Source of the DNA: a virus
Virus record (IMG/VR): IMGVR_UViG_3300007541_000078
Coordinates: 1 to 35,252 of that record
Direction: 5' to 3' (one strand)
Length of the DNA stretch: 35,252 bases
Shown one piece after another: positions 1,712-29,673 of this stretch. Numbering within the stretch: the stretch's first letter is position 1; every line of letters starts with the position of its first letter. The notes under the pieces were generated by a model. That model was not told the DNA's origin, ran no database searches, and saw only the letters and a list, made by a program, of their open reading frames with translations. A program made the translations under genes and the position numbers.

Positions 1712-3540
1712 TGGACCTTATCACGTTAGATTTTGAAACCTACTACGACAAGGAGTATTCCCTGTCTAAGATCACAACCGAAGAATACATCCGCTCCCCT
1801 CAATTTGAGGTGATCGGTATCGGTGTGAAGGTCAACAACCAACCGACTGAATGGGCGAGCGGCACACATGAACAACTCAAAGAATACTTACAGTCATTCG
1901 ACTGGGCAAACTCTATGGTACTTGCTCACAACACTATGTTTGATGGTGCCATTCTTTCTTGGCGTTTCGATATTCATCCTCGCATGTTTACCGATACTCT
2001 TTGTATCGCCCGTGCTCTACATGGGGTGGAAGTTGGCGGCAGTCTCAGGGCGCTCACTGAAAGGTATAACATCGGAGAGAAAGGCACAGAAGTCGTCAAC
2101 GCCCTCGGAAAGCGAAGGGACGATTTCAGTGAAGCCGACCTCGACAGATACGGTGATTACTGCGTCAACGATGTCGAACTCACATACAAACTCTTCAACA
2201 TCTTCCTTAAAAAAGGATTCCCGAAAACTGAACTAAGGCTGATCGACCTCACCCTGCGTATGTTCATCGACCCTGTATTGGAACTGGACATCGGGCTACT
2301 CGAACAGCACCTCGAAGACACGCGGGAGCGGAAAGACCAACTGCTTGAGAGTGCGGGTGTGTCTAAAGAAGACCTCATGTCCAACCTCAAGTTTGCGGAA
2401 GTGTTGGAGAACTTAGGCGTAAAACCGCCGACCAAGATCAGTCTTACCACTGGCAAAGAAACTCTGGCGTTTGCTAAGTCGGACGAGGCGTTCAAGGCAT
2501 TGGCTGACCACGAGGATGACCGAGTGCAAGCCGTGGTAGCGGCGAGGCTAGGCACCAAGAGCACACTCGAAGAGACGCGGACTCAGCGGTTCATCGACAT
2601 AGGTAAACGAGGCACCCTGCCTGTTCCTGTCCGTTACTACGCCGCGCACACTGGGCGATGGGGTGGCGATGACAAGATCAATCTTCAGAACCTACCGAGC
2701 CGTGGTCCGAATGGTAAGAAGTTAAAGCGGAGCATCCTTGCCCCCGAAGGCTACACCCTGATTGATGCCGACAGTGCGCAGATCGAAGCGCGTGTTCTGG
2801 CGTGGCTTGCCGATCAAGACGACCTGACCCAAGCGTTCGCTAAAGGTGAGGACGTGTATAAGAAGATGGCGTCACGCATCTACGGATGCAGTGAAGGTGA
2901 AGTGACCAAAGACCAACGGTTCGTGGGTAAGACCACCATCCTTGGCGCGGGTTACGGCATGGGTGCGCTCAAATTCCAAGCACAGCTAAAGACGTTTGGG
3001 TTTGATATGGACCTCGACGAGGCCCGACGTGTCATTAACATCTACCGCGAAGCCAACTGGAAAATTAACCAACTCTGGCGCGATTGTCAGAACATGGTGC
3101 GGCACATGGTCAACGGCGACAGCTACCAAATCGGTAAGTCTGGCGTGTTGAAAGTAGTGGGCGCAGAACGCGGCATCCTGCTGCCATCAGGTTTGCTCAT
3201 ACAGTATGACGACTTATCAGCCGAGCAAGGCGAGAACGGTTTGGAATACAGCTATAAGACACGGCGCGGACGCACCAGAATTTATGGTGGAAAGGTGACG
3301 GAAAACGTCTGCCAAGCAATCGCTCGTTGCATCATTGGTGAGCAAATGTTACAAATTGCTAAGAGATACCGCGTTGTGTTAACCGTGCACGATTCGATTG
3401 TGGCCTGTGTTCGTGACGAAGAAGTGGCAGAGGCTCAAGCATATGTCGAAGAGTGTATGCGTTGGACACCTGCGTGGGCGGACGGTCTACCGATCAACTG
3501 CGAAAGTGGAACTGGGAAATCATACGGAGATTGTGAATGA
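1711..3540 (+). CDS. DNA polymerase, family A (3'-5' exonuclease plus polymerase)
   Basis: A 609-residue replicative polymerase. The N-terminal proofreading exonuclease is intact: DFET (Asp7, Glu9), HNTMFD (Asp78) and YCVND (Tyr150, Asp154). The polymerase motifs are motif A DSAQIEAR (Asp354, Glu359), motif B RFVGKTTILGAGYG (Arg403, Lys407, Leu411, Tyr415) and motif C VHDS (His560, Asp561). The 5'-3' exonuclease domain of bacterial Pol I is absent, as in phage enzymes. The residue matching E. coli Phe762 is Leu411. GTG 1708 is an alternative start three bases upstream. ATG 1711 fits better, with AAGGAG at eight-base spacing and a TGATG overlap. The end is coupled by ATGA to the nuclease gene. 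Confidence 0.95.
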   Translation: MDLITLDFETYYDKEYSLSKITTEEYIRSPQFEVIGIGVKVNNQPTEWASGTHEQLKEYLQSFDWANSMVLAHNTMFDGAILSWRFDIHPRMFTDTLCIARALHGVEVGGSLRALTERYNIGEKGTEVVNALGKRRDDFSEADLDRYGDYCVNDVELTYKLFNIFLKKGFPKTELRLIDLTLRMFIDPVLELDIGLLEQHLEDTRERKDQLLESAGVSKEDLMSNLKFAEVLENLGVKPPTKISLTTGKETLAFAKSDEAFKALADHEDDRVQAVVAARLGTKSTLEETRTQRFIDIGKRGTLPVPVRYYAAHTGRWGGDDKINLQNLPSRGPNGKKLKRSILAPEGYTLIDADSAQIEARVLAWLADQDDLTQAFAKGEDVYKKMASRIYGCSEGEVTKDQRFVGKTTILGAGYGMGALKFQAQLKTFGFDMDLDEARRVINIYREANWKINQLWRDCQNMVRHMVNGDSYQIGKSGVLKVVGAERGILLPSGLLIQYDDLSAEQGENGLEYSYKTRRGRTRIYGGKVTENVCQAIARCIIGEQMLQIAKRYRVVLTVHDSIVACVRDEEVAEAQAYVEECMRWTPAWADGLPINCESGTGKSYGDCE

Positions 3541-4208
3541 GTGTAGCACCGTGGTCATTCAGCAAAATAAAGGCATTTGAACAATGCCCGAAACAGTTTT
3601 ACCACGAGAAAATACTCAAAGAGTATCCCTTTGTTGAGACCGAAGCGATCCGCTACGGCTCAGAGTTTCACCTAGCGGCTGAAGAATACATCCGCGATGG
3701 TAAGCCACTCCCTAACAAGTTTTCCTTTGCACAGGACATGCTTGATTCCCTGAACGCCAAACGGGGGGTCAAGCTGTGCGAACGGAAGATGGGTGTAACC
3801 GAAGACCTTAAGCCGTGCGACTTCTATGCGAAGGATGTCTGGTTTAGAGGTATCGCTGACCTGTTAATCATTGATGTGTTAGCAGAAACCGCATGGGTCA
3901 TCGACTACAAGACAGGCAAGAGTGCGAAATACGCAGACAAAGGGCAGTTAGAATTGATGGCACTGACTGTGTTCGCGCACTTCCCCGACATTAAAAAGGT
4001 CAAGGCAGGGTTGGTGTTTGTGGTCAGTAAGGCACTGGTCAAAGACAGCTATGCCGATTTCGATAAGCCGAACCTGTGGGAGAAATGGCTTGGCAAATAT
4101 AACGCCATGAAAACCGCCGCCGACCAAGATGTGTGGAACCCTAAACCAAGCGGACTGTGTAAGAGGCACTGCCCTGTTACTGTTTGCGTTCATAACGGAG
4201 GTCACTGA
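3537..4208 (+). CDS. Cas4/RecB-like PD-(D/E)XK nuclease with probable Fe-S cluster
   Basis: A 223-residue nuclease. The SFSKIKAFEQCPKQF start is typical of the AddB/RecB/Cas4 group. His45 (GSEFH), Asp108 (RGIAD), Asp123 and Lys125 (VIDYKTG) and Gln137 (GQLEL) form the PD-(D/E)XK active site. Cys17 and C-terminal Cys208, Cys212 and Cys217 are placed as the one-plus-three cysteines that bind a 4Fe-4S cluster in Cas4 and AddB. The family degrades or trims DNA ends. In a phage replication operon it may act as an exonuclease in recombination or end processing. No cas1 or CRISPR array is present, so a CRISPR role is not supported. It is coupled to the polymerase (ATGA) and to the next gene (TGATG). 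Confidence 0.85.
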   Translation: MSVAPWSFSKIKAFEQCPKQFYHEKILKEYPFVETEAIRYGSEFHLAAEEYIRDGKPLPNKFSFAQDMLDSLNAKRGVKLCERKMGVTEDLKPCDFYAKDVWFRGIADLLIIDVLAETAWVIDYKTGKSAKYADKGQLELMALTVFAHFPDIKKVKAGLVFVVSKALVKDSYADFDKPNLWEKWLGKYNAMKTAADQDVWNPKPSGLCKRHCPVTVCVHNGGH

Positions 4209-4495
4209 TGCCCTACAAAAACAAACCCCGTCCGTACAAGAAAGAGTACGAGCAACAAAAGAAGCGTGGCGAACATGCTGACCGCATGGAGCGGCAACGT
4301 GCGCGGCGCAAGATGGACAAGACAGGTAAAGACGCTAACAAAAACGGCGTAGCCGACAAGCGTGAAGGTAAGGACATCGCACACAAGAAGCCATTGGCGC
4401 GTGGGGGCACCAATAAAGATGGCTACCGTGTGCAAAGCCGCAAGAAGAACCGAGCGGCAGGGGGTGCCATGAGTAGCCCCAAGAAAAAGCGTTAG
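4208..4495 (+). CDS. Very basic HNH-like protein
   Basis: A 95-residue, strongly basic protein. Residues 1-45 are a Lys/Arg-rich charged helix. Residues 54-82 contain GKDIAHKKPLARGGTNKDG followed by Asn81-Arg82, which follows the layout of HNH nucleases: Asp56 and His59, a PL-x-x-GG-x-x-N turn, then a final Asn. It lacks the zinc-holding cysteines seen in many HNH proteins. It may be a small HNH endonuclease or a DNA-binding protein derived from one. GGAGG precedes the start, which overlaps the upstream stop as TGATG. Confidence 0.6.
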   Translation: MPYKNKPRPYKKEYEQQKKRGEHADRMERQRARRKMDKTGKDANKNGVADKREGKDIAHKKPLARGGTNKDGYRVQSRKKNRAAGGAMSSPKKKR

Positions 4496-4530
4496 TGCCG
4501 CACTAACAAAAACCGCGTCACTAACAAAAA
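4491..4530 (+). repeat. Hairpin at a stop codon plus 12-bp direct repeat
   Basis: GTTAGTG (4491-4497) and CACTAAC (4501-4507) form a 7-bp stem with a 3-base loop, covering the TAG stop of the upstream gene. The second arm is part of CACTAACAAAAA, which repeats exactly at 4501-4512 and 4519-4530. The first arm could therefore pair with either copy. The hairpin is followed by A-rich rather than T-rich sequence, so it is not an intrinsic terminator on this strand. Confidence 0.6.
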
Positions 4531-4553
4531 GTGGCGTTGCGATGGAGAACAAT

Positions 4554-6092
4554 GTGCAGATTTTCAAGAACAAGGCGTTACTGTTGCGCCTTAAAAACCC
4601 GAACAAAGTTACGACTGTCATCCCAAACAGCAAGGAACTGCCTGACAATCAGGTGGCAGTTAAGTGGGGCGTAGACGAAGCGCACACCCTCAAGAAGCTG
4701 AACATCAAGAACGTGCCATCACCCATTGAGGGACGTTACGATTGGCCCGGGCAGTACAAGCCCTACAAACACCAACGTGTTACTGCGTCTTTTCTCACGA
4801 TGAACCGCCGAGCGTTCTGCTTCAACGAGCAGGGCACAGGCAAGACTGCATCTGCAATCTGGGCATCGGACTTCTTAATGAAGCAGGGCAAAGTGCGCCG
4901 CGTGTTGGTTATCTGCCCGCTCTCGATCATGGATAGCGCATGGCGCAATGACTTGTTTTCCTTTGCGATGCACCGCACCGTCGATGTGGCCTATGGTGCC
5001 AAAGAGAAGCGCAAGAAGGTCATCAACCAAGGGGCTGATTACGTCATCATCAACTACGATGGTGTCGAGATCGTTGCCGAAGAGATTGCCAACGGCGGGT
5101 TCGACTGCATCATTGTGGACGAAGCCACGCATTATAAGAACGCACAGACCAAGCGATGGAAGACGCTAAATAAACTGTTAACCGAGGACACTTGGCTTTG
5201 GATGATGACAGGCACACCTGCGGCGCAGTCCCCCTTGGACGCCTATGGCATCGCCAAGCTAGTCAACCCGACTGCGGTGCCGAGGTTCTTTGGGTCATGG
5301 CGCGACCAAGTGATGCGCAAGATCACACAGTTTAAGTGGGTTCCGAAGGATACTGCGACCGACACGGTGTTTCGCGTCCTGCAACCCGCGATCCGCTACA
5401 CCAAGGACGAGTGCCTCGACCTGCCCGAGATGGTCTACACCAAACGCGAAGTCGAATTAACCCGACAGCAGGCCAAATACTACAAGCAACTCAAAGACAA
5501 ACTTGTTTTAGAGGCCGCAGGCGAAGAGGTCACGGCTGCAAACGCAGCGATCAACATGAGCAAACTCCTGCAAATATCTTCTGGTGCGGTCTATACCGAT
5601 GGCGGCGAGAGCCTAGAGTTCGACATCAAGCATCGCTATCAGGTTCTCAGAGAGGTCATCGACGAGAGTTCCAAGAAGGTCTTGGTGTTCGTGCCGTTCA
5701 AGCACACTATCGACATCTTGACCGAGAAGCTACGCAAGGACGGTATCACTGCCGAGGTCATCAGGGGGGACGTGCCTGCGGCGAAGCGCACCGAGATATT
5801 CCGAGAGTTCCAACAGTCCGATAACCCAAAGGTGCTTGTCATCCAGCCGCAGTCAGCGGCGCATGGTGTGACGTTAACAGCCGCCAACACAGTTGTGTGG
5901 TGGGGTCCGACCAGTTCGCTAGAGACTTACGCACAGGCAAACGCGCGTGTTCACAGGTCAGGACAGGATCACAAATGCACCGTCGTACAGCTCCAAGGTT
6001 CCCAAGTAGAGAAACGTGTTTACGCATTATTAGATAACAGAATAGACGTACACACAAAAATGATTGATCTTTACAAGGAAATACTTGACTAG
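4554..6092 (+). CDS. SNF2-family DNA helicase/translocase
   Basis: A 512-residue superfamily 2 ATPase of the SNF2 type. Walker A is GTGKT (residues 94-98). Motif II is DEAT (189-192), followed by TGTPAAQSP (motif III). The C-terminal RecA-like domain has VLVFVPFKHT, a motif V region near ANTVVWW and motif VI QANARVHRSGQ (461-471) with its arginine fingers. Such proteins remodel or unwind DNA during phage replication and recombination. I place the start at GTG 4554 because GGAGAACAAT before it matches the GGAGAAC leaders of other genes in this block. An in-frame ATG at 4542 lacks a good site and would put GGAGA inside the coding sequence. Confidence 0.9.
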   Translation: MQIFKNKALLLRLKNPNKVTTVIPNSKELPDNQVAVKWGVDEAHTLKKLNIKNVPSPIEGRYDWPGQYKPYKHQRVTASFLTMNRRAFCFNEQGTGKTASAIWASDFLMKQGKVRRVLVICPLSIMDSAWRNDLFSFAMHRTVDVAYGAKEKRKKVINQGADYVIINYDGVEIVAEEIANGGFDCIIVDEATHYKNAQTKRWKTLNKLLTEDTWLWMMTGTPAAQSPLDAYGIAKLVNPTAVPRFFGSWRDQVMRKITQFKWVPKDTATDTVFRVLQPAIRYTKDECLDLPEMVYTKREVELTRQQAKYYKQLKDKLVLEAAGEEVTAANAAINMSKLLQISSGAVYTDGGESLEFDIKHRYQVLREVIDESSKKVLVFVPFKHTIDILTEKLRKDGITAEVIRGDVPAAKRTEIFREFQQSDNPKVLVIQPQSAAHGVTLTAANTVVWWGPTSSLETYAQANARVHRSGQDHKCTVVQLQGSQVEKRVYALLDNRIDVHTKMIDLYKEILD

Positions 6093-10970: not shown

Positions 10971-13900
10971 ATCGGCTGTACTCCCTACGGCTCTGTTCGA
11001 TGGCATAACGCACCAGTGGGTTGATAGTCACGCCGTTGTACATCTCATAAGATGTTCTTCTGTGTGAGTCCAAAGACCGCTGGATGTCCTCGTTGGCAAT
11101 GGATGCGTAAGGATGTCTGTCGTTGAACTCGAAGATTTCGTCCAATACCGCAGAACTCTCGTCGAAATCGTTTACGCGCAGTGCCACATAATAACGACGC
11201 ATCAGGTTGGTACGCTCGTCCACGATGGCCCGCTCCACACGCTTATCGCGTTGGTTCTGTTCCTGTTGGAAGATGTAGTCGGCAGGGGCGAACCCGATGC
11301 CTTGAGCAAGCATTTCCCAAGTAGACATATCAGCGTACATCGGATCGTTGCGGCGGGTGTAAATACCCCCCTGCTCCTGATACCGCCCGAAGGTCGTCTT
11401 GTAGGCGTTCGCCACACCTGCGGGAAGCGCACTCTCAATACCACGTTGGATTTCGCCGTTAGCAAAATCGTCTTTTGCACGGAGCATACGCTTACCGACA
11501 CTCAGCGCCGGACCACCTAGATAGAACATGATGTCTTCTTCTAGTGAGGCATTGCTGTTGTAGCGGTTCTCTTGGATCAGCAACCCAGTTAGGCGCACAC
11601 GGTCTGCGATGTTAATGCCTGTGGCTTCTTGCAGTGGGCCTTTGAACCACCCTTCACCGATCTGCTTGCGCACCATCGTGTTGAAGTCGTCCTCGTCATC
11701 GTCAAAGAACAGTGCGTCCATAACCAACTGCACCGCGCCGTAGAGCGGCAGGCCGTAAACCCCAGAGAAGAACAGTGCAGTGCCGTGGAAACCCATGATC
11801 TGCTTGAACGCACGGTTGCGGGTAGCCTTATCGCCTTCGATATGGGCTTCGACCATCTCTTTTGCAGTCTTTGCCATCGTGTAGTACATCTGCAAGCCAT
11901 AAGACTTGTACATGAAGGCCACACGCCCGATACCCTGTTGCGACACTTTCGGTGCAGTTTCAAGCACCGCGCCGCCGTTGGTCTGCTGAGTTTCGTAAAG
12001 GGCTTCTTCTGCCGCTTTCTGCCGCGCTTCTTGAGTAGACATGCTCGGGTTGTCTTTGCGTATCTTTTCGAGCGCAAGGTTGTAGGACGCGATCAGGGTG
12101 ACCTGACGGTTGAAGCGTTCAGCTTGGTTGAACAGCATCGCTGAGATGCCAGAAATCTTGTCCATGTTGCGTGTAATCACGTTACCACGCTGTACACGTC
12201 CACCTTCTTCGAGACCCAACGCATCAAGCAAGAACGACCGATTTAGCTGACCACGCTCGGTAGCCATCTTCACCAGAGGTGACAGACGTTCCAGTTCTGC
12301 AACTGTGTCTTTGTCTAGTTTCAGGTCTTTGCGTACCTTGAAGTCACCATTCGGCGTAACTTCGTAGTAGGCGTCAATGCCGTAGGCTAGAGAGGCTTTG
12401 TCGAGAACTTTACCCATGAGGTGCGCAGAGTCCGACCCAACCTTAGAGCCAGTGACCAGACGCATCGCTTTGAAAATTTCTGATGACGTGTTCTCGTAAC
12501 CATACTTACCGCCCAGCATCGGCAGCACGAACAGCGGCACCTGTGAAAGGTTGACCAGTGCAGAGGCGGCGTTGAAGCCGATTGTGTAGATGAAGGCGAC
12601 TTGGTTCAGACCTTTGTAGATGCGTTCCATCTGCTTGTTCTTGGCACCAGAGCGAGCAAACTGCGCACGATCAAGGAGTTCTTTCTTGACCATATCGGCA
12701 GGGATCGCACCGACTGCACGTCCAACTGCGGTCTTTGGCCCACCAGTCTCGGCGGGTTCCATCTCAAAGATTTCGTCCTCAAGCTGCTGTATTTTGGCGC
12801 TGTACTCTAGTCGGGCTGTCTGACGACCAAGGTCGTAGCCCTTAGTTTTCATCGCATATAGTGCGTCTTGGATGTAGCCCGGGGTGCCTTTACGCTTTTG
12901 CAATGACTTGGCAAACGAGTTTTCAGGTAGTGCATCGACGAATAGGCGCAGAATTTCCGCTTGGACATTTTCATCCACCTTGTTGGCCTTGAGCGTTTGC
13001 AACGTCTGACCAACAAAAGATGTCGGGGGAGCCGCTTGGAATTGCTTGAGGCCATAGTCTCCGTCATGGGTCTTAATAGATGACGCTACTACGTTATCAT
13101 CCTTCTTCAGTTCTGCAATAGCACGGTCACGTTCTGCGTAGTTATCAAACATCTGTACGACATAGGCATCGCGCTCGTTGGCAACGCTGCTGTCCTTGAG
13201 TGAATACTCAAGTTTGTACTGACCTTCACGGATCAACGGGAAGTAAACGTCCAAGGTACCCGTGTCGAACAACCGTGCGTAAACCTCGCGCTTCAGCTTA
13301 GCCGCCGCTTCGGGGTCTTTAATAGCGGCATCAATACGTCCGTAGATAACGTCTTTTAGTTTGTTGTACTGATCTTTGTACATGTCACGCATGGTTTTGT
13401 ACGCGCGTTGTCCATCAGGGCCGAGCGTGTTCCAGTCGGCACGTTGATCTTTCCAAACGTCAAACAGCTTGCGACCAGATACTTCAGTATCGCCGTACTT
13501 CTTACGCGCCTGTGCTTGAGTTAGCGTGGGGTCTACCTGCCAGATTGTCGCACCGTGGTCACGGCTATAGATGATATTATTCAAGGCTTGGTTCTTTTCG
13601 ATACCCGCCTTGTTAGACCATTTCTCAACCTCACGCACTTTGCCTTGGACGTATTCGTCAGACAGGTACATCGCGCCGCGTTGGCGCTCAATTAAATCAT
13701 GTAGGCGTAGGCCGACATTGCCGAGGCCGACTTTATTGGCGACATCACCAAGAGCCTGAGAGCCGAGACCGTATAGATACGCGATCTTGGCGTTCATGTT
13801 CACGCCGCTACGGAGCATCTCCCGACTACCATCGGCAAACTGCTGTCGTGCTTTTTGCGTAAGTGGGCCGAGTTTCTTCTGCATCTCGCCCAAGTCTTTA

Positions 13901-16900
13901 GCCGCCTGCTTCACATCACGAGGCGCACTCATCATCGGCAGTTCAACAGCGTCACGATAGTTCGGCGCAGGGGCGAGCATAGCTTCGATCAAGCGATCCG
14001 CTTGAGACATTGCCGAATCAATCTGTTTCGGCTGCATACCAACAAGTTTACGCACAAAGTTTGCAACTGAGTTTGCAAAGCGTTGGAACGCACTGACTTC
14101 TTTACCGTCAGGGTACATACCCGCCAGCTTTTGCTGGAACTCTGGGTTGGACATAGCTTCGGACGCAAACTCATCTACGTTTGTTGCACCGTATGCGGAA
14201 TCAAGCATCGGCTTCACATCTTCAAACAGCTTGGTCAACTGCTTGGTCAGCGGGTGGTTCTTGTTCGCTAGTGTCGCGCTAACCGCCGCGTGCGTCATCT
14301 CGTGCAGAAGTACGTGGGGGTTCAACCCTGCTTCTGCATCCAACTTAATAGTGTTGGTCTTGGGATCAAACAAACCTGCGACAGGCTTACCATCTTCGCC
14401 CTTGAGGTTCTTAACGATTTCGACTTGAGTAAAGTCTTGCGCACCTTCGAAAGCTTTTACTTTATCGCCACGAATTATGACTTCATCCTCTCCGATACGT
14501 CCACGTAATGTGATGTCGGGCGATGCAAGGATGTCTGATTTGTTTACAAGATACGCGTCAAGTTTTTGCTCTTTACCCTTACGCCAAGGTAGGTTGGAGT
14601 CGATAGAGTAGTTAGGGTCAAGTGTGTATGATTGCGGACTTTCAGGATCAATTTTACCTACACGATATACAACTACTGTATCAGGCTGATCTTTAAGCGC
14701 ACGTTGCGTTATGGCTTTAACGTCTCGTTTCAACGTATTTAATTCTGCGTTTGTAACATCTCTTGCTAAAACCGCTGAAAGTTCTGAAAGCGCATAATCT
14801 GCGTCTTCGTGCAGTGCACGGAATACATTAAAGTTGTCCCCTCCACGTCCAAGTAATAATTCTTTTGTAATATCACTTACATTTGCAGCGTCTAAGTCTG
14901 CCGCAAAACGCGTCGTGGAAAGGTTGAGGCGGGCTTTAAACTTATCTCCCCCGCGAACTACGTTAGCCATCTTGCTTGCAACCTGTGACACACGATTACT
15001 TGGCGACGTGCTGGCTAGTGCTCGCAGTGCACCTGCTAAGTCGTTATTACTTAGGGCTACACGCACTGCTGGATGCAGCGGCACGTCGAGGCCGACTACT
15101 GCACTGCGCTCAAGCATCTTCGAGAACATCTTCGACAGTTCGTTCAGGTTAGCCCGTACATCTTCACGCATCTCGGCTTCGACTTGCGATTGGAGTGCCG
15201 CTTCGTTTGCCGCTAGTTTGGCTTCGCGCTCCCGAAACATCTCAACATAGTCTGTGTTCTCAATGCGATTAAACTCACGCACTTCCTTCTTCAGCGTCTC
15301 GTCGATCCACTTGTTTGTCTTTGCTGACAAGTTAGCCTTAGCCCAGTCGAGTACCCGGCCCGCAGGCTTTTGACCCATACCTGAGAAGAAGTTACGACGT
15401 GATTGAGATTCGTTGGCTTGCGGACGATACTGTGGCGTTTGGTTAGCCGCATCGAAGATAGCGAGATACAGGCCATCAATCGGACGCTTGACCTTACCTA
15501 AATAAGTTAGGGCGGCTTGGCCTTCTTTGTCGCGCGCCGTCGTACCGTTGGTAAGCAGGGTCAAAATCTTAAGGCGGTCATCAGTGGTCGTGATGTCCTC
15601 ACCGATAATGTCGGTGTAATCCTTGCTCAGATCAGTTGCGATACCTTTGGTTTCGGCGTCCTGCGCCTCGAAACGCTCGTTAAGTTGTTTAGACGTATTG
15701 TCCTCAACAGGTGCCCGGCGTTTAGGAGTAGGCGCAGGGGCCATTGCCTCGGTGCGTTTCAGCTTGGTTTTCTTCAAATCTTTGGTGATTTTTGCACCCG
15801 CTTCGGGGAACGCAGGCATCACCTTGCGTTTTTTACTTTCTTGCTGAGACTCGGTAGCGGCGCGTCTCTTCTCGGCTTCGCGCACGACTTCTTTTGTGAC
15901 TTCGGCGCGTTCAGTCAACCGCGTGTCCAAAGGCGTTGAAAGACGGTTAATCGCTGCCGAACTCAAGTTCAGTGCAAGCGGTTCTTCCGCGCTCAAAGGT
16001 TGCGAGCGGCGGTTAATTTCTGCCGAACTTAAGTTCGATGCAATCTGTGCTTCTTCTGCGCTCAAAGGCTGCGAGCGACGGTTAGCCGCTGCCGAACTCA
16101 AGTTTAGTGCAAGCTGTTCTCCTCCCGCTCGTCTAGGAGCTTCTCCAGTGCCGCGCCCAGTATCACCCATTCCTCGTGTTCTAGGTGTTGGAGCTGCTTC
16201 GGTAGGTCTTCCTGCTTCAGGTAAAGGCGCTCCGAAATCCAGAGTTGGTGTAGTACCTTGAACGCCTGCTCCACCTGTTGCTGGCTGAGCTGGTCTAGTT
16301 TGTTCATCTTTGCCTCCTTTTCGTCCGCGTGGTTGAGGCTGAAACAATTCTAGTTGTGCTTCGGGCACTCCCTCTAGCTCGCGTGCGACGTTCAATCGAG
16401 TCTGCTGCGCAACTTTCGGGTTGTTTGCAAACTGGACAAACTGCTCACGTACCGCAGGGTCGTTCAAGTCTTTACCCTCAGTACGCGTGCGGATTGGCGC
16501 TTTCGGTGCAACGCCAAGGTTATCTAAGAACTCTTTCGTGATAGTTCTCGGTGCAGGAACCTCTTCTGGTAACTGCTCAGCACGCGCACCTTTACGCCTA
16601 CCCATCCCGGGGAACGACTGCTGCGTCATTTCACGGTCAGGTGCACGGCGCTCTGGGATGCGTGCCTCTAGTTCTTCAAGTTGCGTAGCCTCTGGCGCAG
16701 TCTCTACGACCTCCAACGGCTCTTGCTGCGCTTGCTTACGCTGTTCTTGCGGGCGCATACCTGCAAACGCATCTGCCGCACGGCGAATACGCGCAGTTTC
16801 TGCTGCGGTCGGCTTGGCACGATCACCACTTGCAATGTTGCGGCGAGACAGTTCTTGGGAGAACCGCCGCTCAAGGTTAACGTAGCTGCCTGTCGTCGGC

Positions 16901-20170: not shown

Positions 20171-21028
20171 TTAGCCTCCTGTCCCGCTAGTGTTTGTCCC
20201 ACTGCCAGTCTGTTCTTTCTTCTGCGGCAAGAACACTTTTGACAGAAGATCGTAAATGCCGCCAGAACCCGACAAGAACTCAGACAACTGGCTAGGTGCA
20301 GCGTAAGAGTAGGATTGCGCTGCAATAGGCAGACCCTGCAAAAGAGACTGCATATACTGCACCTGCTTGTATGGGAAGTCCCGCTCTTCTTCAAACTGTA
20401 GACGATCTGCGGTGATACCCTCAGATTCAATACCCCGCTGCACTGCACCGAGTTCGGCCTGACGCTGTAGCCCCGCTAGCCCGTAGGCGCGGTTGGCATC
20501 CTGTGCGGCTTTCTGCGCTTCCTGTTCGGTATTGAACTGCTGCATTGCCTTGTCAAAGGCAGTGGCATAGCCCTGACCCGTGACGTTAGCCATGTTAGCT
20601 AGCATACCGCGTGTTAACTCAGCATCAGCCAATGCCTGACGTGAACCACCGTAAGCGCCAGCACGGGTAAGGCGACCTGCCTGCTCTACACGGGACCGTT
20701 CAGTCTGACGACGTAGCTCGTCGAGTTGTGGCTGTAGCGCCGCTTGTACATATGGATTCATGTACTGCTGCGCGCCTTGAGCCGTAAATGTTTGCGGGGT
20801 GTACCCCATGGTCTGCTGTTCAGTTGGCATAGCCAACCCAGCAATCCCTTGGAACGCTTGTTCTTGAAGCCCCGATGCACCTGCGGTGAGTGGCCCTGTG
20901 TATGCGTAATACGGCTCGTTAGCGAGGGCTGCACCCTTGCCGAGCATCGTGGTTACATATGGACCTGCCCAGTTAGACAGGGAAGACTCTGTGCCTGTTT
21001 GTTGGCCTACAATAGGATCATCTGCCAT
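20171..21028 (-). CDS. Putative internal virion/DNA-transfer protein
   Basis: A 285-residue protein. The core is helical, with MNPYVQAALQPQLDELRRQ and RLTRAGAYGGSRQALADAEL (about residues 120-140). This AGAFGGSR-like motif recurs in phage proteins annotated as DNA-transfer or internal virion proteins, and I use that as the family link. The ends are Gly/Ser/Thr-rich. It has no membrane span, though residues 45-70 are Gly/Ala-rich. It lies three bases upstream of the next leftward gene and probably forms part of the ejected core. GAGGTGAGAC precedes ATG 21028. Confidence 0.65.
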   Translation of the reverse strand: MADDPIVGQQTGTESSLSNWAGPYVTTMLGKGAALANEPYYAYTGPLTAGASGLQEQAFQGIAGLAMPTEQQTMGYTPQTFTAQGAQQYMNPYVQAALQPQLDELRRQTERSRVEQAGRLTRAGAYGGSRQALADAELTRGMLANMANVTGQGYATAFDKAMQQFNTEQEAQKAAQDANRAYGLAGLQRQAELGAVQRGIESEGITADRLQFEEERDFPYKQVQYMQSLLQGLPIAAQSYSYAAPSQLSEFLSGSGGIYDLLSKVFLPQKKEQTGSGTNTSGTGG

Positions 21029-21036
21029 GTCTCACC

Positions 21037-21858
21037 TCACGCTGGTAAATACTTTTTAGGGTCAATTTCTTTTCCCTGTTTCTCGGAACCTGTACGTGCT
21101 TTGCGTACCCGAGCCATCATGCTTTCAAGGACTTTAGCACCTGCATCGGAGTTGCCGTTGCCGAGATGGCTAACAACATCAGCCGGAATAACAAACTCGC
21201 CGTCACTCAATGCCGCTGGCTGCATCCCCTCGATTTCCGCAGGAACCTCGTCTGCCATACCGTCTGTGTCGCCGTTCAGATACTTGCCTTTTTTCATCTT
21301 CAATGTGGCTAAACCACCTGCTGCCAGCTTTTCTTGCACGGGGGCTGGAGGACCACGGCGTGCTTCACGGGCAGGGTTCTGAATGTTTTGCTCCATAAGT
21401 GAAGCGATTTGTTCGTCTTGACGCTGCTGTGCTGGAGTTACATCTGCATCCTGCGCGACATACTCGACATCAGTAAAATACCGACGACCACCACTTCCGG
21501 GGCGGCGGTTAGGATCATAGGCCATAGGCATCATACGCCCAGTAGGCTGACGGGCAGTAAGTGCCTGAAGACCAGTTGGCGTAGGGGTGCCCATCGGGCG
21601 GATCGCGCCACCTTGTAGTTCAGTGCCTCGCGCAACGGGGACTTGCTGCCGCATCGCGGTCAACGCAGGGATACCACCTTGGTACCCAGACGGTGGGATT
21701 TGCGCGTCACCTACACCAGATTTGTTGCCGAGGTAGCTAAGCCCCATTGAACCAAGGCGAATAATGCCCTCTGGGCTGCTAAGGTAGTCTATAGCGTTGC
21801 TACCAGCGGACTTTAATCCTGTACCTAACGCGTCGAGGGTATCATCGAGCCATGACAT
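21037..21858 (-). CDS. Virion-associated protein with AAGG and LSDGEFVIPADVV motifs
   Basis: A 273-residue protein. The N-terminal 50 residues are an amphipathic helix region. Residues 60-130 are Pro/Gly/Arg-rich. KLAAGGLATLKMKKG (177-191) is followed by a conserved segment with ALSDGEFVIPADVVSHLGNG and a helix AKVLESMMARVRKAR. The LSDGEFV(I/V)PADVVS segment is widespread in marine phage virion proteins, and its function is unknown. The start shares one base with the upstream stop (TAATG), and GGAGG precedes it, so it is coupled to the 1975-residue gene. Confidence 0.65.
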   Translation of the reverse strand: MSWLDDTLDALGTGLKSAGSNAIDYLSSPEGIIRLGSMGLSYLGNKSGVGDAQIPPSGYQGGIPALTAMRQQVPVARGTELQGGAIRPMGTPTPTGLQALTARQPTGRMMPMAYDPNRRPGSGGRRYFTDVEYVAQDADVTPAQQRQDEQIASLMEQNIQNPAREARRGPPAPVQEKLAAGGLATLKMKKGKYLNGDTDGMADEVPAEIEGMQPAALSDGEFVIPADVVSHLGNGNSDAGAKVLESMMARVRKARTGSEKQGKEIDPKKYLPA

Positions 21859-24800
21859 TATTTGCCTCCAATTATATTTAACAACTTATCAGTTGTATCC
21901 TCTACTTGTCCACCCTTTGCATACGGACTAGGGAATAAAGCCTGTTGTGAAGGGTTAGCAAATATGCTGCTCCAGTCGTAAATGTAGCGTAATTGTAGCG
22001 GATCAGGTGTTCTGACGCTAACTTGTTGCCCCGCTGCATCGGGTGCTTGGAGTGCCATTTGCAAGAAGTTACGTGCGCCTTCACGCATCGCTTCATCTTC
22101 TATGTTAGTAACAATGTTCTGTTCCATCTGTTGGATGGTATCCAGAGTTTGTTCTTGGTTTTGCTCCATCTGCTGTGTCAGATCGGTCTGCACGTCTTGG
22201 ATGGTGCCGTAAACGCCTGTTGGCGTGAACTGAGATGTGTCGGCAAACGTAACTTGCTCGCCGCCTAGCGCCTGTTCGAGCAGGGTTTGGTCGTTAATAT
22301 CAACGATGCCATCGCCTGTTACATCGTACAGAGCAAGCTGTTGCTCATTAAGCACTTGATTTTGCGCAATAACGTCAGCAACAAAGTCGATGTCGGTTTG
22401 AGTAACGTCCTGTGCAGGTTTGCCTACATAATTAGCAACGGTTTCAATGTCCGCACTAAGGGACTCTTCGACCCCAGTGATCTGCTCGCCCAGTGCCTCT
22501 TCAACCCCAGTAATTTGTCCGCTAAGAGCCTCTTCAGTAGCACCGAGTTGCTCAGTAAAGCTCGTCTCAAGCAGGTCAATCTGGTTGGTTAGGTTGGTTT
22601 CGGTCAACCCAAGCTGATCTAGTATGTCGGCTTTTGCTACGCCAAGATCAGTAGAAAGCTCGTCGATCGCGCTGGAAATAGCTTCGTCACGCTCTTGCCC
22701 TGCTGTTTCGTACTTATCAATAAGCCCAAACAAGCCAGTGGCGTCGGTTGACTCGTCTTCATCTGTAAACGGATTATCAGGTATTGCTGGCTGACCAAGA
22801 GTTAGCGCGATGTTACTAACGTCACCTGCAACTTCGCCGATTTCACCAGACAGGGCTTCTTCAGTCTGCGTCAGGGCGTTCGTAATATCGGTAACTGCAA
22901 CACCAAGATCAAGCGCAACCTGCGCAATAGCTTCGGCATTGGACAAGCCTTGGGCTTCGAGGTCTGCGATCTCTGCGTAAATACCTGTCGGTGCAGTAAC
23001 TAGGTTGCCGTCTGCGTCGTATTCGGCAGCGGTACCGACATTACCGATGAGGTCTTGCAGCGAGAGGCCGAGGTTGTCTACGGCGTTGTCGATGTAGTTA
23101 TAAAGACCAGTGGACTCAGTATCTTCTGTAGCAGGCGCACCGAGGATGTCTAGAACTTCGTCGATGTTGGAATCAAGGTACGCGTAAATACCTGTGGCTG
23201 CTGCGTCTTCGGTGGCGGGGGTACCAATTTGTCCCATGATCTCGTCACGGGTAACGCCAAGATCAGTCGCAACCGCATCAATCGCCGCGTCAAGATCGCC
23301 GCCAACCGTTGCAAGTTTGTCGAGCACCGAGGTTTCTACGTCAGTAAGATCGCCTGCAAGCGTGTCAAGCTGCGCATAGATACCCGTGGCTTCTGCATCG
23401 CCCGTGGCAGGGGTACCAACAATACCTTCAACGGTGGCCTGCACTTCTTCGTTTGTAAGGCCAGAATTTTTGAGTGTTTGCACTGCATCGTCGATGTAGG
23501 CGTACAGCCCAGTGGCTTCCTCTTCGCCCGACGCAATCTTACCGACAGCGGCTTCAAGGTTCTTGGTAGTTTGGTCAATAACTGCAACGTCAAGACCGAG
23601 GTCGCCCAGTGCGTTAATCATGTCGGCTTTAACGACATCCAACGCCTCTTGCATCTCGTCGGATACACCCGCCTCCCCTGAAAAGTTCTCAAGGATGTTC
23701 ATAATCGAGTTGTATCGTGCAGTCGGCAGGTACTCTTCGGCACGTCCTGCAAGTTCTACTTCAGCGTACTGACCTACAAGCTCTTGAATATCGGCATCGG
23801 TAGGACGTGTGAGGCCAAGGGCTTCATACGCAGCGGCAACTTCTTCGGCGTCAACGACACGAGGGTCGGTGTACTCTTCGATTGCTGCTTCTTGCTGCGA
23901 CTCACGAACTTGCCCTGTAAAGCTGGCAACTTCTTGGTCTGTTGGGGTGTATCCAAAGCTCTCAAGGAACGCCCGTGCTTCTTCTGCATCGGTGTAAAGT
24001 GGGTCAACAAAGGTAGCAATCGCTGCTTGCTGTTCAGCTTCGGTCGTAGCACCAACAAACTGTTCAATTTGTGCCTTCGTTGGTGTGAACCCGAGGTCAT
24101 TGAAGAACTGTTTGGATTCTTCATAAGTGGTGTACTGTGGGTCAAGTTCTGCACGCAGATCGGTTACGGCCTGCGTCTCGTCAGTTTGCTGCACATACTG
24201 CTGTGCTTGCTCTTCGGTAAGCGTGATGCCTTCCTGTGCAGCGGCGGCGATGACTTCTTGGGTATCGAAATACCGCGTGTCGATATGCTCAGCAATCTGC
24301 TGGACAGTCTGCGACTCGGTGCCTGCACCGATAAACTGCTCGATTTCGTCTTGTGTTGGCGTGTAGTCAGGGTTGGTAGTCTGGAACGCAGACTCCGCTT
24401 CCTGCGTACTGGTGTACTTGCTGTCGTTGATATTGTTTAAGATGTTAGTCTGCGCGGCACCAGTGATACCCAACTCAGTCAGTGAGTTCGCGGCGTTCTG
24501 CAAGCCCGCCGTTGTATTCGGCGTATTAGTAATGATCGCGTTGACTTCGGGGTTCATTGCCGAAACAAGGTTCGAGTACATGTCCCCAGTCTGACTGACT
24601 CCATATGCACCGCCTGCGATTGGGCCACCAATCAAGAAGCCCATAAACGCTGCACCTGCAACTTCACCCGCTACATTAATACTTGGGTCTAGCTGCGCAA
24701 GGTGACCTTCACGGTATGCGGTTGCGCCACCTTCTTCGATGGACTCAGTAACACCTTCACGGATCGTGATCTTTGCACCGTTGCCAATACGAGTACCAAG

Positions 24801-27785
24801 CTCGTCAATACCGCGTGCAAGGAAGCCGCTAACTTCGTCTCTACCAAGAATGGCTTTTTCAAGGGCTAGACCACCTACACCGAGGGTAACTGCGGTCATA
24901 GTCGCCGCGACCGTACCCGTCTCAACGGCTAGATTTAGGGCGTATTGTTGGGCTTCGGCATCGGACATACCTGATGCAGTAGCTACTTCGTAAGCACGAT
25001 CATATGTTTCCGCAGCCGTACCGCCAAAGCTCTCAGCAAGGTCGGTAGCCGCAGCCGCGCTTAGACCAGTCGTAGCCGCCATCCGTGCGGACAGCGTTCT
25101 GCCGACAGCCATAGCTGCGCCTTTAGCGCCAAGGGTAGCTACACCACCCACTGCAAGAGGTACAAGCTCCTGCATGGCTTCGACACCGATGTATTCCGCG
25201 ATAAACGCAGTCGGCTGAGTAGCAATCGCACCCGCGATGTTCTCAACTTTTTCAAAGGCCCGCTCGTACCATGGCGCGTCAGGGTCAAGCTCTGACGGAC
25301 GGTTCATAAGCGAATTAAGTTCTTGTAGGTTCTGGTTGTACTCTTCGGTGGTAGACGCTTCACCCAGCTTAACAAGTTTGTCTGCGAACTGTCCGAGTGC
25401 GGTTTCAGAAGGCACCACACCAGCAAGAGCAACAACACCGTTGAAGGCTTTAAGGATGCCGCCCCCTGCCTTCATGACGTTAGCAGCGGTGTTAACCAGC
25501 GCGTCGTTACCAGTGTTTTTAGCGAGATTTATAATGTTTGATGCAAAGTTAATGGCATTGTCTACGCCACCAAGCTGCGCACCTGCTGCCTGAATTACAG
25601 CGTTGTCGGTAAGTGCATCGTTAATCTGCTGTGCACTGGCGTTACCTTGCAGGAGGCCATTAATGGTGTCGCCAAAGGTCGCAGTGCTGTTACCTCCGTA
25701 AATGGTAATCCGCATTGGGGTGACTAAGTTGCCATCCATATCTTTGGTTACTACCCCGTAAGGACGACCTTGGCTATCATAGGAAGTAGTAACAGTTACA
25801 CGCCCGAACTCAGGGTCATATTTTTGTTCAGTAACGCGTACGTTGCGCCAGACACGGTTACCATCTGCGTCGTATTCAACCGAGGCTTTACCCGAAGCAA
25901 CGTCTTGCCATGAAGTACCAGACGCAAGACCTGCGGTAGAAGTACCTTGGTTATCCTGTGCGTAAAGCGCGGCTTTTTCTGCGTCTGTAAGAATGTCACC
26001 ATCCATACCATCAGAAGTATCAAACCCCAATGCCCCCAACCGTGCGCGGTTATCTGCATCCAGCGTAGCGTTTCGGTACGGGTTATCGTTTCGGTTTGCC
26101 AGCCCTGTTTGAACTTGCGCAGCTAGGTCCGCAACAACCGATTCGTCATTAAGCGCGGCTTCAAGATCATTGGGGTTGTCGTATGCGCTAGAAATAGCGT
26201 TATAGACTCCCTGAAGCTGATTGGCGTTCAAACTGCTCGGATCAATACCTGCTTCGGTAAACACACGGTTCATCATCGCAGACGTATTACGCCGTTGCGC
26301 CGCATTAAACTGGTCAAAGTTCGTATATACGTTCTCGTATTGACCGTTTTCTAGGAAGTGTTGATACGCATCGACGCCAGCAGGAAGGTCGTTTAGCGCA
26401 CGGTATTCGGCCTCGTTGAACAGTGGGTCCATCACCAGAGTGACCGCCTTGGTCAGCTCGTCGTTGAGTGGTTTAAGCTCGTCGTCCAACCGCTCAATAG
26501 ACACGTTCATGTTGCTCTGTGCTTCGAGCAAGTCAGCTTCAGCGGTCTCAAGCAGTCCTGTGTCACGCTCAATAGCCGTGACTAGGTTCTCCATAAGCGG
26601 GTTATACTGTTGATACTTCGTGTTGAAGTTCTCAATCATGGTGTTGAGTGCGCCAACAGATTTGTTGTACTCGATCTGCTGTGCCTCGTTGTTTGTAGGC
26701 AGTCCAGCAATGCGCGTCTTTTCCGCTTCAATATCTTCGTAAAGACCAGCCAACTCGGTGCGCATATCTTCATATGCTCTGGCGTTAGCTTGGCGGCGCA
26801 GGCCAATATCATTAACTCGTTTAGCAGCGTCTTCGGTTTCTTGGTAGTCACCAGAAATTTTATCCAGTGTGTTACCGATGAAGTCACCAACCTTAGAGTT
26901 ATCAATGGCTTCCTTGAGTTTGGCACCGCCATATGCTGACAGTGTGGCCTGCAACGCGGCGGCGGCTTGCTCGCCTGACCCACCTGACAAAGCAACCGCT
27001 GTAACACGCTGCAACGCAGCGGTGGTATATGCAAGTGCAGCAGGGTCATCAAAACTAACGCCCCCTTTCGCTGCCAAGTCAGACACAAGCTCAGTCGTCA
27101 ACAGACCACGCGTAACTGCACCTGCCATCAACTCGGGCGTGATCTGCTGGCCTTGAAGCTGCGCAGTAATACCTGCGGCGACAATGTTGGATACGGTGTT
27201 TGGAATCGGCTTGGTAGTAACACGCCCCGTGTCGGGGTCTTTTACCTGCACCTCGAAGCCTAGAGATTCCTGAATTTTACCAAGGCCCGCTGACACGCCC
27301 GCGCTTAGACCACCACGTAGGAAGGCTTGCATTGGGTCTTCGCCGTAGATAACGGCAGTCGTTGCTTGAACTGCGCCCTCTTTGACGATTTCACCAACAA
27401 GCTCGCTACCTACTGCTTCGGCAACGTAGTCACCTGCGTAAGAACCAACTTCACCACCGACAGCGCTTGCAACGTAAGAAACAGCCGTAGCTTTCAGAAC
27501 GTCACCAATATCACCGCCGTTAGCAGCGACACTAGCCCCATCAATCAGTGGAATTGCCCACGCATTACCCGTAGCCACCGCAGCAATCTTAGCGATTGTT
27601 TCGATGGGGTTGTCCATAAGGGCGTCGATCGTATCGCCAACGAAATTTGCAACAGGTTTGATGATTTCATCTGCAACGAAGTCAACGACATCGCTGATCC
27701 CGTCACCGACCCATTCGATAACGTCACCGACTGCATCAGCTACACCGCCGATAACATCGCCAATAAAATCAACAACTGCTGACAC
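21858..27785 (-). CDS. Giant repeat-rich tail/ejection-type protein
   Basis: A 1975-residue protein starting at GTG 27785 after AAGGGG. Residues 1-60 are an unusual amphipathic array of DFIGDVIGGVADAVGDVI type that could form membrane-active helices. Hydrophobic Gly/Ala segments recur, for instance at about 1040-1075. Near residues 455-482 is one YRALNDLPAGVDAYQHFLENG unit like those of alphaproteobacterial hemolysin-type proteins. Residues 1120-1345 carry about five tandem units of 45-50 residues, and residues 1418-1860 carry seven TG(I/L/V)Y units. A single EF-hand/dockerin-like loop (DVTGDGIVDIND) lies near 1819-1832. The end carries YAKGGQV. No enzyme motif is seen. It is probably a structural or DNA-ejection protein. 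Confidence 0.7.
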   Translation of the reverse strand: MSAVVDFIGDVIGGVADAVGDVIEWVGDGISDVVDFVADEIIKPVANFVGDTIDALMDNPIETIAKIAAVATGNAWAIPLIDGASVAANGGDIGDVLKATAVSYVASAVGGEVGSYAGDYVAEAVGSELVGEIVKEGAVQATTAVIYGEDPMQAFLRGGLSAGVSAGLGKIQESLGFEVQVKDPDTGRVTTKPIPNTVSNIVAAGITAQLQGQQITPELMAGAVTRGLLTTELVSDLAAKGGVSFDDPAALAYTTAALQRVTAVALSGGSGEQAAAALQATLSAYGGAKLKEAIDNSKVGDFIGNTLDKISGDYQETEDAAKRVNDIGLRRQANARAYEDMRTELAGLYEDIEAEKTRIAGLPTNNEAQQIEYNKSVGALNTMIENFNTKYQQYNPLMENLVTAIERDTGLLETAEADLLEAQSNMNVSIERLDDELKPLNDELTKAVTLVMDPLFNEAEYRALNDLPAGVDAYQHFLENGQYENVYTNFDQFNAAQRRNTSAMMNRVFTEAGIDPSSLNANQLQGVYNAISSAYDNPNDLEAALNDESVVADLAAQVQTGLANRNDNPYRNATLDADNRARLGALGFDTSDGMDGDILTDAEKAALYAQDNQGTSTAGLASGTSWQDVASGKASVEYDADGNRVWRNVRVTEQKYDPEFGRVTVTTSYDSQGRPYGVVTKDMDGNLVTPMRITIYGGNSTATFGDTINGLLQGNASAQQINDALTDNAVIQAAGAQLGGVDNAINFASNIINLAKNTGNDALVNTAANVMKAGGGILKAFNGVVALAGVVPSETALGQFADKLVKLGEASTTEEYNQNLQELNSLMNRPSELDPDAPWYERAFEKVENIAGAIATQPTAFIAEYIGVEAMQELVPLAVGGVATLGAKGAAMAVGRTLSARMAATTGLSAAAATDLAESFGGTAAETYDRAYEVATASGMSDAEAQQYALNLAVETGTVAATMTAVTLGVGGLALEKAILGRDEVSGFLARGIDELGTRIGNGAKITIREGVTESIEEGGATAYREGHLAQLDPSINVAGEVAGAAFMGFLIGGPIAGGAYGVSQTGDMYSNLVSAMNPEVNAIITNTPNTTAGLQNAANSLTELGITGAAQTNILNNINDSKYTSTQEAESAFQTTNPDYTPTQDEIEQFIGAGTESQTVQQIAEHIDTRYFDTQEVIAAAAQEGITLTEEQAQQYVQQTDETQAVTDLRAELDPQYTTYEESKQFFNDLGFTPTKAQIEQFVGATTEAEQQAAIATFVDPLYTDAEEARAFLESFGYTPTDQEVASFTGQVRESQQEAAIEEYTDPRVVDAEEVAAAYEALGLTRPTDADIQELVGQYAEVELAGRAEEYLPTARYNSIMNILENFSGEAGVSDEMQEALDVVKADMINALGDLGLDVAVIDQTTKNLEAAVGKIASGEEEATGLYAYIDDAVQTLKNSGLTNEEVQATVEGIVGTPATGDAEATGIYAQLDTLAGDLTDVETSVLDKLATVGGDLDAAIDAVATDLGVTRDEIMGQIGTPATEDAAATGIYAYLDSNIDEVLDILGAPATEDTESTGLYNYIDNAVDNLGLSLQDLIGNVGTAAEYDADGNLVTAPTGIYAEIADLEAQGLSNAEAIAQVALDLGVAVTDITNALTQTEEALSGEIGEVAGDVSNIALTLGQPAIPDNPFTDEDESTDATGLFGLIDKYETAGQERDEAISSAIDELSTDLGVAKADILDQLGLTETNLTNQIDLLETSFTEQLGATEEALSGQITGVEEALGEQITGVEESLSADIETVANYVGKPAQDVTQTDIDFVADVIAQNQVLNEQQLALYDVTGDGIVDINDQTLLEQALGGEQVTFADTSQFTPTGVYGTIQDVQTDLTQQMEQNQEQTLDTIQQMEQNIVTNIEDEAMREGARNFLQMALQAPDAAGQQVSVRTPDPLQLRYIYDWSSIFANPSQQALFPSPYAKGGQVEDTTDKLLNIIGGK
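22205..23530 (-). repeat. TG(I/L/V)Y repeat family in the 1975-residue protein
   Basis: Seven units share a core of ATG(I/L)YxY(I/L)D, for example EEEATGLYAYIDDAV, EDAAATGIYAYLDSN, EDTESTGLYNYIDNAV and FTPTGVYGTIQDV. Several are preceded by G(T/A)PAT-x-D. Spacing is variable (about 40-110 residues), with coiled-coil-like sequence between units. Confidence 0.8.
23750..24425 (-). repeat. Tandem 45-50-residue repeats in the 1975-residue protein
   Basis: About five consecutive units follow the pattern YxxxxEAxxFxxxxGYTPTxxEIxxFVG...DP, for example LYTDAEEARAFLESFGYTPT and QYTTYEESKQFFNDLGFTPT. The units look like helix-turn-helix pairs in a solenoid and are well diverged, so the array is old rather than recently copied. 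Confidence 0.8.
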
Positions 27786-28258: not shown

Positions 28259-29371
28259 TCACACCTCCCGTGAAAACAACGCAGCCGAGTAGATATTACC
28301 CATTCCAGCGGCAAGACTGAGGATAAGTCCATCGGGTACAGGGGCGTCAGAAGACAAGAACACAGGATCATCCTGAGTCCTATTCAAAATCTTAGGCACA
28401 TAGCCAGATTTCAGGTCGTTTAGCAGCAAACCAGTCTCCAATAATCCGCTAGCGCCCATGGTGTGTCCGATACGTGGTTTGTAAGACGTAGCTACAAACT
28501 CGTTAAGAGAACTTAAAAGCGCCGATTTTTCCGCAGCATTATTGACTGGCGTGCCAGTTCCATGCGTTTTGACCAACCTTACATCATTTTGGTGGGCTTT
28601 GGCTACAAATAATGCGCCTTCGATGGCTTTTATGAAGCCAGAACCGTCATTTCTCTGGCCCAGAGGGTTCGTATTGTCCTCGGCGGAGCTGTATGCGCCC
28701 TTAAATTCAGCCAGTGGAGCCGCCATTCCTCTGTGTTCTTTCTCGAAAATAGCTATAACTGCGCCCTGCCCAATGTGGAACCCTTGGTTATGGTCATCAA
28801 ACGCAGATGGCTGCATCTTGTCCTCGTCGGCATATTGTAGGCTAGCCCCTGCCTCTCCGAAGAACTCCAGCACCAAGTTGTTTACGCTGTCCTCACCGCT
28901 GAACACGATCACACGGTCAAACCCGTAGTTCGTCATAAGGTTCTGCATGTTCATCAAGACATGCAGGCTGGAAGCGCAGGCGCTTGCATCGGTCGATACG
29001 TGGTCATGAACCCCAAACATAGTGGCGATCCGCCCCGCATAGATATTGGTTAGTACGATAAATGGTACTTTTACTTTGTAATGCAGTTCCGCATCGGGGT
29101 TTTTGTCATACCGCCCGTTGGTGCCCATCCAGCCTTGGTTGCCCGCAGCGAAGAGAAACCCAGTCTTGCCCTTCACGGGGTTGTCGAGAACGTAGCTGCG
29201 TAGCTCCTCGTCTATCAGGCTTTCCAGCAGGACGTGCGGCGGGTATTTAAGGCCAGACTTGGCCCTGCGAAACGTATTCGGCAGGATGTGGGCATGTTGG
29301 GGAAACGGTATATCGGAGATTAACTTCTTTTCAGTTGTGCACGCAGTGCGGCATTGCGTTAAGTAAATCAT
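28259..29371 (-). CDS. Beta-ketoacyl-ACP synthase (KAS, FabF/FabB-like)
   Basis: A 370-residue thiolase-fold condensing enzyme. The active site is complete: Cys132 in STDASACASS, His270 in KTHGTGTP and His303 in GHTMGASG, with Lys298 five residues before it. The Cys-His (138) and His-His (33) distances are close to those of E. coli FabF (140 and 37). The C-terminal GMGNIYSAALF matches the Gly-rich end of the family. The protein is about 40 residues shorter than FabF, and the usual N-terminal VVVTGLG segment is missing or replaced. The enzyme would condense an acyl chain with malonyl-ACP. It is coupled to the ACP gene by ATGA and lies among tail genes. Confidence 0.9.
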   Translation of the reverse strand: MIYLTQCRTACTTEKKLISDIPFPQHAHILPNTFRRAKSGLKYPPHVLLESLIDEELRSYVLDNPVKGKTGFLFAAGNQGWMGTNGRYDKNPDAELHYKVKVPFIVLTNIYAGRIATMFGVHDHVSTDASACASSLHVLMNMQNLMTNYGFDRVIVFSGEDSVNNLVLEFFGEAGASLQYADEDKMQPSAFDDHNQGFHIGQGAVIAIFEKEHRGMAAPLAEFKGAYSSAEDNTNPLGQRNDGSGFIKAIEGALFVAKAHQNDVRLVKTHGTGTPVNNAAEKSALLSSLNEFVATSYKPRIGHTMGASGLLETGLLLNDLKSGYVPKILNRTQDDPVFLSSDAPVPDGLILSLAAGMGNIYSAALFSREV

Positions 29372-29673
29372 GCCAATTCCCTCACTAAGTCTTTAATTGT
29401 TTCAAACTCGTCTTCGGGGTCTTGGGTCTTCTTCTCCATGATAAAATCACGCAGCGCGCCGACACTGGATACGGGCCACTCAGAGTCCAGCTCCTCTTCG
29501 ATGCCATAGGCTTCACCTAGAATGACGTAGGTGAGCGTAACATCGAGGCTATCTAAGCCTGTAGTGTCTTCATTTATTGGGGTTTCGAGGGATTTAGCAG
29601 GGATAAAGTCGTCGGTAATGACTTTCTGCTTCGCCCCCACAGCATTAAAAAGTTCAAGGAAATCAAAGGCCAT
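29368..29673 (-). CDS. Acyl carrier protein (ACP)
   Basis: A 101-residue acidic protein. GLDSLDVT holds Ser42, the site for 4'-phosphopantetheine attachment, at the start of the second helix, as in bacterial ACPs (DSL motif). Downstream YVILGEAYGIEEEL fits helix II and its following loop. The last 20 residues are an acidic extension beyond the usual 75-85 residues. It should carry acyl intermediates for the adjoining KAS once modified by a host phosphopantetheinyl transferase, since none is visible here. AGGAG precedes ATG 29673. Its stop overlaps the KAS start (ATGA). Confidence 0.9.
   Translation of the reverse strand: MAFDFLELFNAVGAKQKVITDDFIPAKSLETPINEDTTGLDSLDVTLTYVILGEAYGIEEELDSEWPVSSVGALRDFIMEKKTQDPEDEFETIKDLVRELA

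Follow-up and report, generated by a model that had tools for sequence, protein, structure and literature searches.

The giant gene on the minus strand of a 35,252-base IMG/VR virus record, which was analysed over its whole length and is referred to here as the window, raises the question of whether the R, S and ExE residues in its product belong to an ADP-ribosyltransferase (ART), as the original prediction had it, and how such a domain is arranged relative to the metallopeptidase motif HEMTH farther downstream. In the 2455-aa protein, the PLxRFG/tail-700 part makes up the C-terminal third and is preceded by LPD39 (Table 1), and the protein matched a DarB-like PHROG. A zincin metallopeptidase module with HEMTH, LPD39 and PLxRFG are thus combined in one phage protein, by which it qualifies as polyvalent. 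This is the make-up of phage polyvalent proteins, in which metallopeptidase and ART together were already known, according to Iyer et al. 2017 (PMC5512222). As judged from PHROG matches, the minus strand of the window carries virion and lysis genes, including a virion structural protein gene (phrog_3287, E 6e-71); a minor-tail-like protein, an endolysin and a holin are also encoded on this strand.

Other traits of the window were noticed as well. In the giant protein, residues ca. 320-760 (window ca. 16057-17379, minus strand) form a disordered-looking linker with peptides such as QLELF and QLALNL, which we take to resemble sliding-clamp-binding motifs, and residues ca. 745-830 (ca. 15847-16104, minus strand) contain three imperfect repeats of LALNLSSAAxNRRSQPLSAEE; at these repeats the DNA match to a related locus, L082, breaks and overlaps, suggesting that the copy number differs. 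Another giant ORF (1975 aa; 21858..27785, minus strand) contains repetitive TGIYAYLD-type segments, and no PHROG match was found for it. A beta-ketoacyl synthase gene (28259..29371, minus strand; PF02801, E 1.6e-16; PF00109, E 4e-10) is overlapped by an acidic 101-aa ORF (29368..29673, minus strand), which has a DSLD motif, looks acyl carrier protein-like and gave no Pfam match; such a pair is unusual for a phage virion-gene block.

Examination of the minus-strand ORF confirmed the exact positions of the predicted residues, VVVYR being residues 1221-1225, SYTLDPNYS residues 1236-1244 and GEDEVII residues 1282-1288, with HEMTH beginning 60 residues past E1285. The bare R-S-ExE motif is weak evidence, near chance: the loose pattern had 11 matches in the giant protein versus a mean of 15.4 in shuffled copies, and the strict pattern R-S-x-[ST]-ExE, with one match in the protein, was also matched by 16 of 500 shuffled copies.

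Table 1. Features of the giant protein and a neighbouring gene in the window
Feature	Position (bp)	Strand	Basis
Giant polyvalent-type protein, 2455 aa	10969..18336	minus	ORF; NCBIfam NF032893, Pfam LPD39 and PHROG DarB-like matches
PLxRFG/tail-700 region, residues 1697-2440	11017..13248	minus	NCBIfam NF032893, E 1.3e-93
LPD39 domain, residues 1570-1685	13282..13629	minus	Pfam PF18858, E 7e-9, above cut-off
Catalytic part of metallopeptidase module, residues 1302-1394	14155..14433	minus	Second hmmsearch piece, 158 bits, model positions 51-149 of 149
HEMTH, residues 1345-1349	14290..14304	minus	Within catalytic part of metallopeptidase module
Inserted segment, residues 1128-1301 (ca. 174 residues), absent from most relatives	14434..14955	minus	Alignment with 34 uninterrupted relatives; module hmmsearch over 82 proteins
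R-S-ExE ART-like domain, residues 1146-1294	14455..14901	minus	Model of five relatives without the window, E 1e-46
E1283-D-E1285, predicted ExE motif	14482..14490	minus	Both glutamates invariant in 21 rows
S1236 of S-Y-T, predicted STS-type motif	14629..14631	minus	Invariant in 21 rows
R1225, predicted NAD-binding arginine	14662..14664	minus	Invariant in 21 rows
N-terminal helical part of metallopeptidase module, residues 1074-1127	14956..15117	minus	First hmmsearch piece, 40 bits, model positions 2-55 of 149
DNA ejection protein-like gene, near giant gene	20171..21028	minus	phrog_4287, E 1.8e-4

In the relatives, the stretch before HExxH usually consists of a helix joined by a few linker residues to a strand (TKVEVV), followed by GLFDPKTNTI; in the window, the inserted segment comes after the leading helix and before the first strand. 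Past HEMTH, DEFASEAM starts at residue 1388, with E1389 as the candidate third zinc ligand. A search with a model of the module (hmmsearch) over 82 proteins, from 80 loci plus L082 and the window, revealed that it was uninterrupted in 77 and interrupted at the insertion site in the window, L002, L004 and L082, whereas in L057 the match consisted of several pieces including a second metallopeptidase, the giant protein of this locus having two metallopeptidase-like modules; these counts are no census of occupancy, because the 80 loci were the best 80 of 154 matches, picked by similarity to a metallopeptidase-containing query, and the model was itself built from part of the loci over which it was run. 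The ART had been predicted to lie beside a metallopeptidase; the two indeed share one giant protein, with HEMTH 60 residues on, but the domain turned out to be inserted in the module and not merely adjacent to it.

Among phages, plasmids, genome contigs, PDB and Pfam, direct sequence searches with the insert yielded no useful match, and the domain had no Pfam, NCBIfam or PDB sequence match. A weak match to A3Wally was rejected as chance on reading, and weak matches in Legionella, Natrinema and Roseibium were left unused. The lead that proved useful was phrog_25265 at E 0.073. A pattern search reached a YRG..SWTLD..ExEV family in mycobacteriophages, a Ruegeria phage, Lysinibacillus phages and plasmids, the members of which match PHROG 4776 and 25265 and are nearly always annotated as hypothetical proteins. 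Through this family L123 was reached (one contig with L158 and L164), and the pattern PNY..D..LPW then gave L159, L160, L161, L163, L164 and L168, the remaining four of its ten matches (L162, L165, L166 and L167) being chance. The identity of these IMG/VR phage proteins to the window domain was 56-58% for L160 and 38-40% for L159, L161, L164 and L168, while L163 was partial. Among ORFs of at least 400 aa in 173 loci, the window-type domain was found only in the window and in L160, where it lies within a 1231-aa protein (1827..5522). Pfam gave no match for this carrier at E 0.1, but inspection by eye suggests a ParB-like stretch ahead of its ART domain and a RelA/SpoT-like one behind it.

Comparison of profiles by hhalign linked the window clade to the YRG/SWT/ExE family (PHROG 4776/25265) with 96.6% probability (E 6e-10), and the HMM link between them scored 18.8 bits versus at most 4.9 bits in the 1426 scored of 2000 shuffles. 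By eye, the wider family and the T4-Mod-type ARTs have YRG, S-[FW]-[ST], A..F and ExE in common; against the T4 Mod profiles, the wider family gave probabilities of 12-15%, above all 60 column-shuffled controls, whereas the window clade alone gave no match (0.1%, with 33 of the 60 controls scoring as high). Profile-profile comparison, the kind of check suggested with the original prediction, linked the window clade to the sister family and gave no direct link to T4 Mod. The probable R-S-ExE ART domain belongs to a phage family for which neither Pfam nor NCBIfam has a model.

The alignment used for conservation (A8) had 21 rows, namely the window, L106 and, from a set of 24 distinct rows, the five window-type relatives and 14 of the 19 sister rows; the partial L163 was excluded from both A6 and A8, a further alignment (A2) comprised 11 of the 19 sister-family stretches with L106 after exclusion of near-identical ones, and L128, L136-L141 and L156, which did not fit the family pattern, were excluded. 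The only invariant columns of A8 were Y94, R95, S106, E153 and E155 in window-row numbering, corresponding to Y1224, R1225, S1236, E1283 and E1285, and the T of S-Y-T was present in at least 90% of the rows. Because exactly Y, R, S, E and E are invariant across the relatives, the motif is lifted above chance. Two features of the family are missing from the window row, namely the Gly that follows YR (the row reads YRV) and the A..F pair.

The AlphaFold2 (AF2) model of residues 1131-1305 was ordered (pLDDT 78.6, pTM 0.76), and R1225 is residue 95 of this model, closing strand 90-95. In a Foldseek search of PDB, the first nine rows were ARTs (ExoS, C2-I, CDTa, ART2.2, C3 and a Listeria ART), with a best E of 0.013 and prob up to 0.90 and no match below E 0.001; with VIA, all 50 rows listed were ARTs at Z 4.8 to 2.9, none of them reaching Z 5. 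The AF2 model of the sister family (pLDDT 89.3) gave a mixed Foldseek list from PDB with no match below E 1.4; with VIA, its C-terminal half matched mainly ART-superfamily chains (KptA/Tpt1, Tse6, ExoS and ART2.2; Z up to 6.0), and its N-terminal half matches helical (repeat) proteins. In the viral structure library, two matches at E 0.001 or better were found, neither ART-named, and the first named ART was at rank 13 (E 0.09). In the comparison with ART folds that had been proposed, the nearest solved structures are ARTs, with scores that are weak (E 0.013, Z 4.8), as are those of the sister model. Taken together, the invariant residues, the hhalign probability of 96.6% and the AF2 model with ARTs as its nearest, weakly scoring neighbours support the ART-like R-S-ExE reading; in our judgement an ART fold is very likely, and a working ART is likely, though with somewhat lower confidence.

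Three giant proteins, of L082, of L002/L083 (one contig) and of L004, hold an ART-PolyVal domain (PF18760) exactly at the insertion site, with E 1.6e-18, 4.5e-19 and 2.8e-16, respectively. In our reading, PF18760 corresponds to the Tox-ART-HYD2-type ART described in the 2017 survey. In the Pfam search, L082, L083 and L004 match PF18760 whereas the window domain does not, and strand 1 reads YRV in the window versus the histidine-type YHG in these three. DNA of L082 was 91.7%, 88.0% and 87.0% identical to the window over codons 1-758, 784-1095 and 1303-1487, respectively, with no match over codons 1096-1302. L082 and the window are thus closely related phages that differ in the ART carried. A model of the three PF18760 domains found no further copy in the large ORFs of the 173 loci. 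In L123 and L159, the relative of the window domain is a 190-aa gene directly after a PF18760-like gene, which scored 25.3 bits in L123, below the cut-off of 31.2, and was recognized in L159 by alignment alone. Histidine-type and R-S-ExE-type ART-like genes thus adjoin in L123 (3811..5294) and L159 (520..1988), the two classes being those between which the giant protein alternates. The window domain is best seen as a probable R-S-ExE ART; within a polyvalent protein of the PLxRFG type, it has probably been exchanged with ART-PolyVal, and the result suggests that the insertion site is a swappable slot for host-takeover enzymes. In the open-licence literature, no report was found of an R-S-E ART inside the metallopeptidase or of an exchange at this site.

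We therefore consider it likely that residues ca. 1146-1294 are an R-S-ExE ADP-ribosyltransferase which was inserted in the zincin-type module, where it replaced ART-PolyVal or was replaced by it, and which would most likely work by the following course: 1) the giant protein would be packaged in the virion and enter the host along with the DNA, 2) the metallopeptidase would process the polypeptide before or after entry, and 3) at an early stage of infection, the ART would mono-ADP-ribosylate a macromolecule of the host with NAD as substrate, in the manner of T4 Alt. This course is modelled on T4 Alt, which is virion-delivered, and on the polyvalent-protein model (PMC5512222, PMC9503650). What the analysis established is the position, conservation, insertion and exchange of the domain, its predicted fold class, with weak scores, and the virion genes around it; NAD use, injection, processing and a target are proposed, and we infer, in keeping with the original prediction, that the giant protein may deliver two enzyme activities into the host. 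A more tentative extension, for which we see somewhat less than an even chance, is that the helix-strand junction serves as a cassette slot where, by recombination, phages swap ART effectors of different mechanism (histidine-type and R-S-ExE-type), with peptidase processing releasing the loaded effector in the host.

Among the other readings, the strongest, although unlikely, is that the domain has an ART fold but is not a protein modifier, being an NADase, a nucleic-acid modifier or a catalytically decayed enzyme. Neither fold nor motif determines the substrate, the C-terminal half of the sister model was best aligned with KptA/Tpt1-type enzymes, which act on RNA, and some positions of the family, among them the Gly that follows YR, have been lost in the window clade; the complete and invariant ExE argues against this reading. 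Its first E also points to transfer of the arginine type, as in R-S-E ARTs generally, although this is no test. An action within the producing cell or at virion assembly (e.g. on its own protein or peptidase), and not after injection, is improbable for the domain: being inside the metallopeptidase module, it could gate that peptidase, and several relatives are free-standing genes, but the giant gene lies near DNA-ejection-like and structural genes, and injection of polyvalent proteins was argued for in PMC5512222. Coincidence of the R-S-ExE residues in a domain of another fold, which the strict pattern in 16 of 500 shuffles and the weak structural scores would allow, is very improbable given that exactly the five expected residues are invariant in 21 rows and that ARTs head the PDB lists.

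An R-S-ExE ART inside the metallopeptidase module, the reading preferred here, would add to the predicted host-takeover enzymes an uncharacterised ART-like family whose members occur in phages and plasmids under the label of hypothetical proteins. It would also mean that a polyvalent protein can contain an R-S-E ART, the published survey having reported histidine-type ARTs of the HYD2 clade in such proteins (PMC5512222). The window and L082, differing by the ART at one site, represent a natural swap experiment, which would allow the targets of two ART classes to be compared in the same carrier and the metallopeptidase to be tested as a release device of polyvalent proteins.

Compared with known systems, the domain belongs to the same family as PHROG 4776/25265 (unknown function), with Y-R, S and ExE in common, but those proteins are mostly free-standing, and the window clade is set apart by a separate N-terminal part and an NPNY..D..LPW segment. 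With ART-PolyVal (PF18760) it shares the identical insertion site and its nature as an ART of phage polyvalent proteins, the active site being histidine-type (YHG) in the former and YR...S...ExE in the window domain. Among the R-S-E ARTs Alt, ModA and ModB of T4, the Mod proteins have the motif pattern in common with the wider family by eye, the window clade being without a direct profile match to Mod, and, unlike the window domain, neither Alt nor Mod forms part of a polyvalent protein. In the polyvalent proteins with metallopeptidase and ART described in Iyer et al. 2017 (PMC5512222), zincin, ART, LPD39 and DarB/PLxRFG-like parts are likewise united in one giant phage protein.
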